A DNA stretch of 17,774 bases from an uncultured Caryophanales bacterium (GTDB lineage Bacteria; Bacillota_I; Bacilli_A; RF39; UBA660), in contig CAMKQS010000024.1 of NCBI GenBank assembly GCA_946414975.1, forward strand, positions 1 to 17,774. The letters are read 5' to 3'. Shown piece by piece: positions 3,259 through 17,774 of this stretch. Position 1 is the first letter of the stretch. Each line of letters starts with the position of its first letter. Position numbers and translations under genes: made by a program. The notes beneath the pieces are model-generated. The model was not told the origin of the DNA and ran no database searches. It saw only the letters and a program-made list of their open reading frames with translations.

Positions 3259-4275
3259 GTGAACAAAGTTGCTGATTTAAATAGTATAGTTTTATATCAA
3301 AATGAAACTGGGAGTAAAATTATAGAAGTGTTATATGATAGTGAAGATTTCTGGCTAACCCAAAAGACTATGTCTGAATTATTCTCTGTTAAAGTCAATA
3401 CTATAAACTATCATTTAAAAGAGATATTTAATAGTGGTGAACTAAAAGAAAATTCAGTTATTCGAAAAATTCGAATAACTGCTAACGATGGAAAAAAGTA
3501 CAATACTAGTTTTTATAGCTTAGATGCTATAATTGCTGTTGGGTATAGAGTTAACAGTTTTGAAGCTACACAATTTAGAAAATGGGCTACTAATACATTA
3601 AAAGAATATATTAAAAAAGGATTTGTAGTAAATACAGAACTTTTAAAAAATGGTCCTAAATTTGGTAAAGATTATTTTGATGAATTATTATTAAAAATAA
3701 AAGAAATAAGAGCAAGTGAAAGAAGATTTTATCAGAAAATTACCGATATCTATAAAGAATGTAGCTATGACTATGATAAAAATAGTGAAACAACTATAGA
3801 GTTTTATAAAAATGTACAAAATAAACTCCATTTTGCTATAACTGGAATGACTGCTCCAGAAATAATTTATAATAGAGTAAGCTCAAAAAAAGATAATATG
3901 GGCTTACAAACTTGGAAGAATTCTCCTAAAGGTAAAATATTAGAAAGTGATGTAGTTGTTGCTAAAAACTATTTAGATAAAGAAGAAATAACCGAATTAA
4001 ATAATTTAGTATCAATGTATCTAGATTATGCAGAAAGGCAAGTAAAACTGGGACACATTATTTCGATGAAAGAATGGAAAGAAAAATTAGAATTGTTTTT
4101 AAAACTAAATGAGTATAATATTTTAAAAGATAATGGCAAAATAAAAAGAGAGATTGCAGATTCTTTGGCTCTATCAGAATATGAGAAATATAGAATAAAA
4201 CAAGATCAAAATTATTTATCTGATTTTGATGAACTTATTGAATTTAGTAAAAGTAAGGCAAATATTAATGAATAG
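3259..4275 (+). CDS. RhuM-family (virulence RhuM) protein
   Basis: A 338-aa protein matching the RhuM family, named from a Salmonella SPI-3 gene and common in genomic islands; its biochemical role is unknown. Recognisable parts: DFWLTQKTMSELFSV near 31-45, a predicted helix-turn-helix-like start; SFYSLDAIIAVGYRVNS near 90-106; TQFRKWATNTLKEYIKKGF near 110-130; and TGMTAPEIIYNR near 193-204, all typical. It starts with GTG; AAGGAA lies 8 nt upstream after the long untranslated gap. Its last codons overlap a 34-codon ORF by 8 bp. The family's scattered presence in accessory regions agrees with the neighbouring IS and Fic remnant. Full length, no defect seen. Confidence 0.88.
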   Translation: MNKVADLNSIVLYQNETGSKIIEVLYDSEDFWLTQKTMSELFSVKVNTINYHLKEIFNSGELKENSVIRKIRITANDGKKYNTSFYSLDAIIAVGYRVNSFEATQFRKWATNTLKEYIKKGFVVNTELLKNGPKFGKDYFDELLLKIKEIRASERRFYQKITDIYKECSYDYDKNSETTIEFYKNVQNKLHFAITGMTAPEIIYNRVSSKKDNMGLQTWKNSPKGKILESDVVVAKNYLDKEEITELNNLVSMYLDYAERQVKLGHIISMKEWKEKLELFLKLNEYNILKDNGKIKREIADSLALSEYEKYRIKQDQNYLSDFDELIEFSKSKANINE

Positions 4276-14491: not shown

Positions 14492-15853
14492 ATGAACATA
14501 AAAAGTGATTCTAGAAGAGTAAAAAAGGGAGATATATTTGTCGCACTAGATGGAATTAAGAGTAATGGAGATTGCTATATTCAAAATGCAATAGAATCAG
14601 GTGCTAGTAAAATAGTTTGTAAAAATGGAAAATATAGTGTTGATACTATAAACGTTAGTGATCCTAAAAAATATTTAACAAAGTATTTAGAAGAGAACTA
14701 TAATCCATATTTAAATAAAATGACTATGATAGGAATTACTGGTACAAATGGTAAAACTACTACGGCATATTTAACATATGAACTTTTAAATAGTATGGGA
14801 TATAAATGTGCATACTTAGGTACTCTTGGATTCTTCCTAGATAAAAAACAAGATGATTTACCAAATACCAGTCCTGATACTTGTACATTATATGAACTAT
14901 TTATGGATGCCTATAACAAGGGATATAAATATATAATAGTAGAAGTAAGTAGTCAAGGACTATCATATAATAGATTTGATGGATTAAAATTTGATTATGC
15001 AATATTTACTAACCTAACAGAAGATCATCTAGATTATCATAAAACAATGCAAGCTTATGCTAAAGCAAAACAAAAACTATTTAAATATTTAAAAGAAGAT
15101 GGAGTAGGTATTATAAATATTGACGATGAATACCATAAATACTTTAAAACTAAGAATACTGTTACATATGGATTTAATAAAAGTGATTACCAAGTAATAG
15201 ATTATAAATTATCAATTAATCATACAGATATAAAGATAAAAGTTAAAGATAAAATTTATGAATATAAATACCCATTAATTGGTAAATATAATATTTATAA
15301 TGTAGTTGCTATGTTATCTTTATTAGATAATCTAGGATTTAATATAGATAATATTGATATAACTAAATTAAAAACACCAAATGGAAGAATGGATAAAATA
15401 AAATACAAAGATAATACAATAATAATTGATTATGCACATACATCCGATGCAATGGATAACATTTATAAAACAGTAAAGCCATTAGCTAAAGGGAAAATAA
15501 TTACAGTATTTGGATGTACAGGATCAAGAGAAAAAGAAAAAAGGCCTGTTATGATGAGTCTTGCACTATCTAATTCAGATTATGTAATTGTTACAAGTGA
15601 TGATTTACACGAAGAAACGTATGATGATATTGTTAAAGATATGCTAAATGGAATTAAAAGCGATAAATATAAATTAATTGCTGATAGAGGTGAAGCAATA
15701 GAAGAAGCATTTAAAATGTTAGATAGTAATGATATGTTACTAATACTAGGTAAAGGACATGAAGAATTTATTATAGTGGGTAATGAAAAAATACCATTTA
15801 ATGATAAGAAAAAAGTACAAGAAATATTAAAAAGAGAAAAGGTTACTGAATAA
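14492..15853 (+). CDS. murE: UDP-N-acetylmuramoyl-tripeptide synthetase (MurE)
   Basis: A 453-aa Mur ligase that adds the third amino acid to UDP-MurNAc-L-Ala-D-Glu using ATP, in the cytoplasm. Seen: N-terminal SDSRRVKKGDIFVAL typical of MurE; the ATP loop GITGTNGKTTT (81-91); VEVSSQGL and FTNLTEDHLDYH (lid and metal region); NGRMD and IDYAHTSDAM; FGCTGSREKEKRP; and GKGHE near the end. The site that selects the third residue, DNPR in diaminopimelate enzymes, reads DDLHEE here, so substrate (diaminopimelate, Lys or other) cannot be assigned. GAGGG lies before the ATG. Last gene of the fmt operon, followed by a terminator. A second MurE-like start lies at the end of the window. Confidence 0.92.
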   Translation: MNIKSDSRRVKKGDIFVALDGIKSNGDCYIQNAIESGASKIVCKNGKYSVDTINVSDPKKYLTKYLEENYNPYLNKMTMIGITGTNGKTTTAYLTYELLNSMGYKCAYLGTLGFFLDKKQDDLPNTSPDTCTLYELFMDAYNKGYKYIIVEVSSQGLSYNRFDGLKFDYAIFTNLTEDHLDYHKTMQAYAKAKQKLFKYLKEDGVGIINIDDEYHKYFKTKNTVTYGFNKSDYQVIDYKLSINHTDIKIKVKDKIYEYKYPLIGKYNIYNVVAMLSLLDNLGFNIDNIDITKLKTPNGRMDKIKYKDNTIIIDYAHTSDAMDNIYKTVKPLAKGKIITVFGCTGSREKEKRPVMMSLALSNSDYVIVTSDDLHEETYDDIVKDMLNGIKSDKYKLIADRGEAIEEAFKMLDSNDMLLILGKGHEEFIIVGNEKIPFNDKKKVQEILKREKVTE

Positions 15854-15855
15854 TT

Positions 15856-15885
15856 AGATAAGTAAAAAAACTTGTCTTTTTTTTT
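15856..15885 (+). terminator. Intrinsic terminator after murE
   Basis: AGATAAGT (15856-15863) pairs with ACTTGTCT (15870-15877; one G-T wobble) around six A residues, followed by nine T residues. Confidence 0.85.
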
Positions 15886-15899
15886 ATATATGATAAAAT
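15872..15899 (+). promoter_or_regulatory. Possible promoter for the prepilin-like gene
   Basis: TTGTCT (15872-15877), 16 bp, TAAAAT (15894-15899). The -35 would lie in the terminator's right arm. Weak match, supported mainly by position. Confidence 0.3.
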
Positions 15900-15923
15900 A
15901 ATATATAGAATAGGAGTATGATT

Positions 15924-17393
15924 ATGAAAAGAAAAAAAGGTTTTACTTTAATAGAGTTAATAGCAGTCTTAGTTATTATGGCAATCATTGCACTAATCGT
16001 AACACCACTAGTAATGTCTATAATTAAAAAGGCAAAAATAAGTGCGAGAAAAAGAAGTGTAGATGCTTACGGGCGAAGTGTAGAGTTAGCAATTGCATCA
16101 CATTTACTAGATACAGGTACATTTCCAACAAATGAAGAGTTACCAAATCTACAAATAGAATATAGTGGTTCTACAGTAGTATGTAATGTAATGGCTATGA
16201 AAGAAAATGGAGGATTATACTTATCAGAGTGTAAAGTAAATAATGTAGATGTTAAAGATAATTCTACTGATGATGGATGGTATCATTATGGTACTAGAGA
16301 TTTAACAAATGAGGAATATGTTGATATGTATGGAGATGCCTTAAAGACTGCATCACTTGCATATTTTAATACAAATGGTAATCCAGTTGAAGATTATAGA
16401 ACTTTAACAATAGATTATAAAGGCAAAACAGTAACATGTGATGTTACAATTAATTATGACGCAACTATTTATATGACTAAATGTAAAGTAAACAATGTAG
16501 ATGTAACAAGTGATACAGAAGATGGATATTATCATTATGGTAGTATAGTAAATCCACCATCTGCGGTAAATGATTTACTTGCAAAAGCAAATCCAGTAAC
16601 TGTAACAAACTATACAGATGGAAATACTGGGGAGATGTATACATTTGAACATCCTGCAACAACTCAAACAGGAGCTTTAACAGATTATAGATATATTGGA
16701 GCAAATCCAAATAACTATGTAACATTTAACAATGAATTATGGAGAATAATAGGAGTATTTACAGTAGAAGATGGAAATGGTAATACCGAACAAAGAATAA
16801 AGATAATAAGAAATGAAAAATTATCAAGTGATATGGCTTGGGATTCAAATGGTGTAAATGAATGGTCAACTGCAACATTAAATACATATTTAAATGGAGA
16901 TTATTATAATGGATTAGATGATACAAGTAAGAGTATGGTTGCAGATACCAAATATTATTTAGGTGGAAGGACTGCATATGATAATTTAAAAGGTGAAGAT
17001 TACTATAATTTTGAACGTGGGACAAAGGTATATAGCGGTAGAAGCACTTCATGGACTGGAAAAATAGCCTTAATGTATCCAAGTGACTATAGCTATACCT
17101 ATGCATTAGGAGTAGATAATACTTGTTACACAGATGGATATGATTGTGATGGTTCATCAGGAAAAACAAATGGTTGGATATATAATACTAATAGTAATTC
17201 CAATCAATGGCCTTTGTCGCCTAATTCAACGGACTCGTATAGCGCGTTCTGTCTGAGCTATTCGGGCTATGTCAACTACAGCGACCTCGTCACTAACTCT
17301 TCAGGCGTTCGTCCAAGTCTGTATCTAGTATCTAATATCAAAATAGATTCAGGTGAAGGAACGGAACAGAGTCCTTATCGCTTGAAATTATAG
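15924..17393 (+). CDS. Prepilin-type surface protein with hypervariable C-terminal domain
   Basis: A 489-aa protein starting with a type IV prepilin leader: KRKKG then FTLIE (cleavage after Gly6, Glu at +5) and a hydrophobic helix (LIAVLVIMAIIALIVTPLV). ATG 15924 is preferred over ATG 15918 since AGGAG is then 7 nt away. Residues about 49-123 and 136-206 are a tandem duplication, each with two Cys (87/103; 172/187) and CKVNNVDV then YHYG, probably a disulfide-stapled module. From about 240 (YRYIGANPNNYVTFNNELWRIIGV) runs a large domain, DUF6273/C-type-lectin-like in layout, ending in GVRPSLYLV. Residues 431-469 are encoded by a GC-rich cassette repeated downstream, the likely variable region. 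No pilus assembly genes or reverse transcriptase are in the window. Likely role: surface display of a variable ligand-binding tip. Confidence 0.85.
   Translation: MKRKKGFTLIELIAVLVIMAIIALIVTPLVMSIIKKAKISARKRSVDAYGRSVELAIASHLLDTGTFPTNEELPNLQIEYSGSTVVCNVMAMKENGGLYLSECKVNNVDVKDNSTDDGWYHYGTRDLTNEEYVDMYGDALKTASLAYFNTNGNPVEDYRTLTIDYKGKTVTCDVTINYDATIYMTKCKVNNVDVTSDTEDGYYHYGSIVNPPSAVNDLLAKANPVTVTNYTDGNTGEMYTFEHPATTQTGALTDYRYIGANPNNYVTFNNELWRIIGVFTVEDGNGNTEQRIKIIRNEKLSSDMAWDSNGVNEWSTATLNTYLNGDYYNGLDDTSKSMVADTKYYLGGRTAYDNLKGEDYYNFERGTKVYSGRSTSWTGKIALMYPSDYSYTYALGVDNTCYTDGYDCDGSSGKTNGWIYNTNSNSNQWPLSPNSTDSYSAFCLSYSGYVNYSDLVTNSSGVRPSLYLVSNIKIDSGEGTEQSPYRLKL
17213..17332 (+). repeat. Candidate DGR variable region (VR) in the pilin-like gene
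   Basis: This 120-bp block is about 48% G+C in surroundings near 25%, using codons (TCG, GCG, CTG, GGC, GTC) that are rare in the rest of the window. It is homologous to 17525-17641. Identical ends (16 bp at the left, 29 bp at the right beginning GGCGTTCGTCCAAGTC) bracket variable codons. In the 23 codons before a one-codon indel, 9 codons differ by 11 bases, all at positions 1 or 2. The invariant right end would correspond to the IMH-like anchor of a DGR. Confidence 0.75.
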
Positions 17394-17406
17394 TCGAAGA
17401 GATTAT

Positions 17407-17439
17407 GGCGGCTGTTGTGCCTTTAGGTCAACGCCCGCC
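17407..17439. other. GC-rich hairpin after the variable gene
   Basis: GGCGGCTGTTG (17407-17417) pairs with CAACGCCCGCC (17429-17439) at 10 of 11 positions (one C-C mismatch, one G-T wobble) around an 11-nt loop that can itself close through CC/GG. No T-tract follows, so it is not an ordinary terminator. It starts 14 bp after the stop codon. Known: DGRs often have a GC-rich hairpin or cruciform after the VR that aids target recognition. Confidence 0.6.
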
Positions 17440-17524
17440 CGCCGATTATTCATGTATTATAAATGTTATTATAATAATTGATAAAAATGTTAGTAAATTA
17501 ATTGTAGGTTAAGCTTGAAGGAAA

Positions 17525-17695
17525 TTTGTCGCCTAATTCAGCGGGCTCGAATAACGCGTTCTGTCTGTTCGTTTCGGGCAATGTCAACAACAACAATTCG
17601 AACAATTCTAATGGCGTTCGTCCAAGTCTGTATCTAGTATCAAAATAGATTCAGGTGATGGTAGTGAACAAAGCCCATATCTGTTATCAATGTAA
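17525..17695 (+). pseudogene. Truncated second copy of the variable cassette and gene end
   Basis: Homology to the pilin-like gene begins abruptly at TTTGTCGCC, exactly the left edge of the variable block, and runs to a stop at 17693-17695. In the cassette frame it reads NSAGSNNAFCL, then AAC/AAT-rich codons (NVNNNNSNNSNGVRPSLYLV). A 7-bp deletion relative to the upstream copy, between two TATC repeats at about 17638-17641, breaks the frame; after it the tail DSGDGSEQSPYLLSM is intact and diverged at synonymous sites too. It has no start or leader. It is best read as the 3' end of a second, lost target gene; a decayed template repeat or a silent donor cassette is possible. Confidence 0.7.
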
Positions 17696-17703
17696 TAAAT
17701 TAA

Positions 17704-17746
17704 CCTCTAGTATATTTAATCATAAAATATACTGAGGTGTTTTTTT
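17704..17746 (+). terminator. Intrinsic terminator whose right arm holds the next ribosome site
   Basis: CCTCTAGTATATTT (17704-17717) pairs with AAATATACTGAGG (17725-17737) over about 13 bp with one bulged T, then TGTTTTTTT. GAGGTG in the right arm is also 7 nt before ATG 17747, so folding would hide the ribosome site. Confidence 0.8.
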
Positions 17747-17774
17747 ATGTTACAATCTGATTCTAGAAAAGTAA
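17747..17774 (+). CDS. Start of a second MurE-like gene (partial)
   Basis: Only nine codons are present: MLQSDSRKV. They match the start of the MurE in this window (MNIKSDSRRV) in the SDSR(K/R)V motif that opens Mur ligases of the MurE type. GAGGTG lies 7 nt upstream. The gene runs off the window, so identity rests on this motif alone. Confidence 0.5.

Follow-up and report, generated by a model that had tools for sequence, protein, structure and literature searches.

A Type IV Prepilin Gene as the Probable Target of a Diversity-Generating Retroelement in an Uncultured Gut Bacterium of the Bacilli

Introduction

Two similar GC-rich blocks lie at the end of a prepilin-like gene in a stretch of 17,774 nt from an uncultured Caryophanales bacterium (assembly GCA_946414975.1, contig CAMKQS010000024.1; the whole stretch is hereafter called the window). 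What has made these blocks differ from one another, and why are there two of them? An initial annotation had read them as a candidate variable cassette of a diversity-generating retroelement (DGR) and a second copy downstream. Here, we argue that positions 17214–17317, in the first block, are very probably the variable repeat (VR) of a DGR near the 3' end of the prepilin gene. The second copy, judged by its sequence, is best described as a displaced template-type repeat with its spacer, and not as a second variable cassette.

Results and Discussion

Two Blocks at the End of a Prepilin Gene

Both blocks are present as described (17213–17332 and 17525–17641). Over the 23 codons that begin with TTG and precede the length difference between them, nine codons differ by 11 bases, none of which is at codon position 3. 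If changes fell evenly across codon positions, the probability that all 11 would avoid position 3 is (2/3)^11, or ~0.01. Taken alone, this third-position avoidance is suggestive rather than decisive; we regard the block pattern as more than chance because hypervariable columns concentrate in the VR across homologues from outside the window, as shown below. The first block is coding, and its VR lies in the open reading frame (ORF) 15918–17393, near the 3' end of the gene and within the lectin-like domain of its product. The second block follows the stop codon, is non-coding and is flanked by in-frame stops (TAG at 17505–17507 upstream and another TAG downstream). The changes just beyond the block are not purely synonymous, since GAA-GGA-ACG and GAT-GGT-AGT encode E-G-T and D-G-S, respectively; the tails that follow the two blocks are of different types.

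The proposed architecture of the target, a prepilin leader joined to a lectin-like domain, is borne out by matches at both ends of the protein. The leader matches PF07963 at E 2.8e-8, above the cut-off, and the protein also matches PF19789 (E 1.2e-5). Modest fold matches support a lectin-like nature of the C-terminal domain.

Hypervariability across Homologues

The protein encoded in the window was aligned with 76 homologues (n = 77, more than 465 residues), drawn from the first 79 of the 120 listed among 710 matches at E 1e-60; the sequences are public data in which orthologues and paralogues are mixed, rather than the reads of one population. Residues are numbered as in the window's own protein (P0001), which is the ORF numbering minus two. 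Twenty-six columns reached an entropy of at least 2.5 bits, and 17 of these lie within the 31 residues of the VR (432–462; hypergeometric P 6e-17); the other nine, residue 427 among them, lie outside it. Mean entropy was 2.17 bits in the VR versus 0.47 bits outside 427–462. Across homologues, variation is thus concentrated at the variable codons, as the initial annotation had anticipated.

The residues found in the VR are restricted in kind. K, E, Q, M and W, for which no NNY codon exists, account for 36 of 1262 entries in the 17 VR columns; among the 20 most variable of the other columns, the figure is 245 of 1532. This spectrum appears to be that expected from mutated adenines of AAY codons, which is close to NNY. 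Identity at 16 variable sites averaged 12.7% among the 77 proteins and was hardly related to framework identity (r 0.18); two pairs reached 60% at the variable sites (shuffle mean 0.015, with a maximum of 1 in 200 shuffles). Residue 427 (window 17202–17204), just upstream of the block that is homologous to the template repeat, is itself hypervariable (3.0 bits).

DGR Machinery in the Nearest Genome

The nearest genome compared, G001, has 38% of sampled 31-letter words in common with the window. Its contig C26 carries, in this order, a paralogous prepilin gene with a VR, a GC-rich spacer as in the window, a template repeat (TR), an ORF resembling MutS domain I (PF01624, E 8.5e-5), bAvd and a reverse transcriptase (RT). 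The RT is intact (364 aa; PF00078, E 1.8e-13), and among solved structures it comes closest to the 8ub7 set (E 8.5e-18, against 1.3e-6 for the next), which we take to be the BPP-1 DGR RT complex. The bAvd ORF matches PF22296 with 41.1 bits (cut-off 40; E 2.7e-10), phrog_3206 'Avd protein of DGR' (E 3e-15) and NF033474 (E 6.5e-11, under its 80-bit cut-off). The templates carry AAC/AAT at the variable codons. The predicted DGR RT and its template are thus found in the nearest genome, beside a paralogous prepilin, and by extension from G001 the window's own genome would also encode an RT.

G001 contains two further DGR loci. Contig C8 holds a second copy, with the RT split over two reading frames, and C13 a different DGR with its own MutS_I-like ORF, RT and Avd-like ORF (38.8 bits, just below the PF22296 cut-off). 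A scan of genome contigs gave 138 stretches that fit a pattern, of which 115 encode a relative of the RT; 80 were retained, mostly from Bacilli.

Adenine Bias between Templates and Variable Repeats

The window VR and the C26 TR differ at 17 positions, 12 of them at adenines (P 3.6e-4). The last 14 bases of the VR (17304–17317, GGCGTTCGTCCAAG) are common to this TR and are presumably the place where an initiation of mutagenic homing (IMH) site would sit. For a broader comparison, seven VRs, namely those caught by a sequence pattern plus that of C39, were aligned with the best of four TR-type repeats, gaps allowed. The 163 mismatches fell at 114 A, 19 G, 18 T and 12 C, and adenine made up 25–31% of the aligned templates. 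The VRs of G001:C14, G001:C4, G052:C15, G146:C13 and G149:C44 were missed by the pattern and stand outside these counts.

Within single genomes (G001, G146 and G052), a search restricted to pairs in which A accounts for at least 75% of the mismatches yielded six pairs in G001, two of which are not repeats of the TR–VR kind, and one in G146; run with C or G in place of A, it yielded no pairs in these three genomes. All mismatches lie at template adenines in the C13 pair (10/10) and the G146 pair (5/5), and the targets of both carry a prepilin leader. Between the C8 TR and the C32 VR, this held for 8/8 mismatches over an ungapped 62 bp and for 18/22 over the whole repeat. Foreign and same-genome pairs alike therefore appear, from their sequences, to have the TR–VR relationship of a DGR, with mismatches at template adenines. 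Templates and VRs also differ in their runs of AAC codons, which number six in the C26 TR (locus L022, ~1720–1830) and five in the C8 TR (L026), with four to six codons at this place in several VRs; because the run differs in length, loop length varies too.

Among the wider RT loci, 27 of 78 contained an A-biased pair, against 2 each for C and G, which serve as controls (the T count, 27, mirrors that of A as both strands were scanned). One of the 27 pairs (L030) looks spurious. None of the 27 paired targets, of which 12 are complete ORFs and 15 run off the locus start, contained the prepilin motif, in a pattern that needed G before F and that AFTLIE-type leaders would escape. At these loci, prepilin targets are thus not seen throughout the wider RT family.

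The DGR reading of the first block is thus supported by the RT, bAvd and TR in G001, by the adenine bias and by hypervariability. According to this reading, RT and bAvd, encoded at another site of the genome, would act as a complex that copies the TR transcript and places random nucleotides wherever the template has an adenine; the resulting cDNA would replace the VR. About 17 positions would in this way be rewritten in the lectin-like domain of a type IV pilin subunit. The system may well be active at present, and the lectin-like domain may bind a ligand.

The Second Copy as a Probable Displaced Template Cassette

Positions 14796–17379 of the window are colinear with contig C27 of G001 (85.6%), and 17525–17774 continue on the same contig (2454–2707; 80.5%). 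The stretch from the VR to the gene end occurs twice in the window, as opposed to the single VR in syntenic C27. The extra piece consists of a VR tail, a spacer and a TR, and its tail (YRLKL*) is as on C26. Tail and spacer together show 6 differences and 6 gap columns from C26 over 201 compared columns, and 3 differences from C39 over 204 columns. Among seven genomes of the genus, the spacer part matched only C39, C26 and C8 of G001 at E 1e-5, and in G001 it occurs only upstream of the TR-type repeats on these contigs. C39 provides a second instance of a VR-tail/spacer/TR cassette of the window type, which ends in a different gene tail. A lone match of the spacer pattern on a viral contig was set aside as a chance match in a GC-rich contig, whose listed ORFs are by eye unlike these genes.

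Could the second block be the template of the VR next to it? This is ruled out, as only 9 of the 19 mismatches between them lie at adenines of block 2 and the other 10 at non-A bases. Block 2 reads TGT/TTC/GTT where the C26 TR reads AAT/AGC/GAT, and it lacks what comes after the TR in C26 and C8. In BPP-1, the region after the TR is reportedly needed for cDNA priming. Because block 2 is without this region, we take it to be inert, and its sequence suggests that it is probably a relic that is out of use as a template. The simplest account of its arrival is that the VR-tail/spacer/TR cassette, including the copy at 17526–17626, entered the VR of this gene by recombination in the VR/TR sequence that they have in common. 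Insertion through over-long copying by the mutagenic RT is disfavoured, because only one of the six differences from C26 lies at a C26 adenine.

The Prepilin Repertoire

At least 11 genes in G001 combine a prepilin leader with a related C-terminal domain: ten from a protein search, in which 10 of 52 candidates were scored, plus the target on C13, with which a second DGR class likewise addresses a prepilin. Six of the 11 showed an adenine excess in a comparison with a TR (C26, C43, C27, C32, C39 and C13), two (C7 and C14:4464) fail to match the C13 TR, and the other three, C22 among them, stand outside the TR counts. Across the family, 72 of 145 genomes matched the protein at E 1e-10, and many of those listed matched the lectin-like part only. 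G001 also encodes the pilus machinery families prepilin peptidase, T2SSF and T2SSE. Leader and machinery together mark the target as a predicted type IV pilin, which would be assembled into a pilus and might be displayed at its tip, as the initial annotation had suggested. One homologue (P0002, 577 aa) contains, by eye, an extra pilin-like repeat, with a segment ending DGWYHYG present twice, and stalk length may vary accordingly.

A broader scenario, which we offer tentatively and would not yet favour, is that the DGR of this genus maintains many type IV pilin tips per cell. Its cassettes would insert into the VRs of other prepilins through VR/TR homology, giving these a new tail and, temporarily, a template of their own.

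Alternative Explanations

Several observations weigh against a DGR at this locus. No RT is encoded in the 17,774 nt of the window, and an RT match at E 1e-5 is found in 3 of the 7 genomes of the genus and missing from four, three of which are 75–84% complete; the genus is thus not uniform. The RT also matches models of group II, retron and defence RTs, below NCBIfam cut-offs or at lower scores. The profile libraries used contain no DGR-specific RT model, so that its DGR type rests on Avd, the TR/VR pairs and the 8ub7 match. Compared with the best foreign TR, the window VR has five mismatches at bases other than adenine (3 G, 2 T), and because of these its true template is taken not to be among those compared. 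Two A-biased pairs in G052 were not read as TR–VR pairs. The C13 TR finds no match in the G001 prepilins of C7 and C14 (C14:4464), where at best 32 and 26 of 59 positions, respectively, are mismatched. Compared with shuffled sequences, neither the spacer (z −0.44) nor the region after the TR (z −0.22) folds any better, and both were rejected as stable RNA structures.

What else could vary the end of a pilin gene? In pilS/pilE systems, silent copies recombine into the expressed pilin, and a comparable archive, working without an RT, would fit the non-coding partial copy just downstream of an expressed gene, the several paralogous VRs in G001 and the tail types that appear by eye to be shuffled between proteins. 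Such an archive should reuse its variants, yet these are seldom shared between the proteins in our alignment; mismatches cluster at template adenines, and an RT/Avd/TR set exists in G001, all of which makes silent-cassette variation highly improbable as the source. We give even less credence to ordinary divergence of paralogues, without any retroelement, in which positive selection favours changes of amino acid. Columns 310, 352–353 and 406–410, outside the VR, are variable as well and speak for it, but it does not account for the adenine-specific pattern, the sharp concentration in the VR, the near-NNY residue spectrum or the DGR genes beside a paralogue.

With the VR of a DGR as the preferred reading of the first block, two other histories of the second copy deserve consideration. 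It could be the remainder of a complete DGR locus that lost its accessory and RT genes when the TR recombined with a second VR downstream. The end product would look identical, and the RT in two reading frames on C8 indicates that decay may happen, unless this is an assembly error. However, this route needs two steps and a further VR beyond the RT. The 7 kb read at C26 contain no such VR, and syntenic C27, in the stretch read, has one VR and no DGR; we consider deletion unlikely while giving it real weight. Less probable still is a second copy that remains in use: it would be transcribed together with the target gene and would serve the RT in trans as an alternative template. In favour of this, it has retained its AAC/AAT runs, and the C39 copy, which belongs to the same type, gives the best alignment for the VRs of G001:C27 and G146:C7. 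The altered codons, the missing post-TR sequence and the poor fit to the adjacent VR, all noted above, argue against such use.

Layout of the Window

The 17,774 bp of the window appear to make up an entire contig. Table 1 gives the coordinates of the features at this locus. The target gene is flanked on one side by a Mur ligase gene (14492–15853). On the other side, 17747–17774 appear to be the start of a second gene of Mur ligase type, judged by eye in colinear C27. Elsewhere, the window encodes an IS110-family transposase (299–1501; PF02371, PF01548) and a RhuM-family protein (3259–4275; PF13310, E 6.7e-102).

Table 1. Predicted features of the prepilin locus, in window coordinates.
Feature	Position	Strand	Basis
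Predicted DGR target gene: type IV prepilin leader, pilin-like repeats and DUF6273 (lectin-like) domain, 491 aa	15918..17393	+	ORF; PF07963, PF19789; model and fold matches
Predicted in-frame VR; 73 bp separate its end from the stop codon	17214..17317	+	Mismatches to the G001:C26 TR; hypervariable columns 434–460 (P0001 numbering)
C-terminal tail (ending SPYRLKL*) of the target, of the type found in the target next to the DGR on G001:C26	17318..17393	+	
Spacer, with a GC-rich segment at 17407–17439	17394..17525	+	Similarity to G001 spacers
Putative displaced template-type repeat (TR relic), non-coding, with GGAAAT directly 5' as in G001 TRs	17526..17626	+	
Remnant 3' end of a target gene (tail SPYLLSM*), joined to no open frame; colinear with the last part of the syntenic gene on G001:C27	17627..17695	+	

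Relation to Known Systems

The system resembles BPP-1-type DGRs with Avd in its RT, bAvd, TR, 3' VR in a lectin-like target and adenine-specific mismatches. Unlike these, its target is a type IV prepilin, one genome holds at least 11 related prepilin genes, and a stray VR-tail/spacer/TR cassette lies inside the VR of another target. DUF6273 targets of DGRs are described from gut phages, in passages on the tentaclins (PMC10743442) and on Faecalibacterium prophages (PMC11792537), which report a VR within DUF6273 and a lectin-type fold, as here; the targets in those passages are phage proteins, whereas ours is a bacterial prepilin. Phage RTs are distant from the RT studied here (22.8–29.4% for the 12 of 55 records that were listed, and 26–31% for 7 viral contigs).

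Pilins have been linked to DGRs before. A review passage describes DGR-diversified tip pilins in the type V pili of Bacteroides (PMC12632263), which are lipoprotein pilins of Bacteroidales, in contrast to the type IV prepilins of Bacilli described here, and putative pilin structures are noted with DUF1566 targets in part of PMC6642488. The DGR set of Thiohalocapsa PB-PSB1, as portrayed in sections of PMC10907252, is associated with transposons, and its targets are putative conflict systems. It likewise has several DGR loci per genome, degenerate copies and targets diversified in trans, but the joins that we describe fall in VR/TR sequence and the targets are pilins. A literature search that paired DGR with prepilin or type IV pilin found no report, and a prior one is possible in likely sources that lay outside this search. 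DGRs and DUF6273 targets are already known, and other kinds of pilin-like DGR target have been published. The novelty lies in the stray template cassette and in the class of target, type IV prepilins of which several occur in one genome.

These findings connect the type IV pili of uncultured gut Bacilli with a retroelement that acts as a mutator. A cell could show several different lectin-like pilus subunits and keep altering them, and the binding partners of such diversified adhesins, be they glycans, other cells or phages, become testable. The stray cassette, seen twice with different tails, suggests a concrete way in which DGR templates and gene ends could pass from one target to another.
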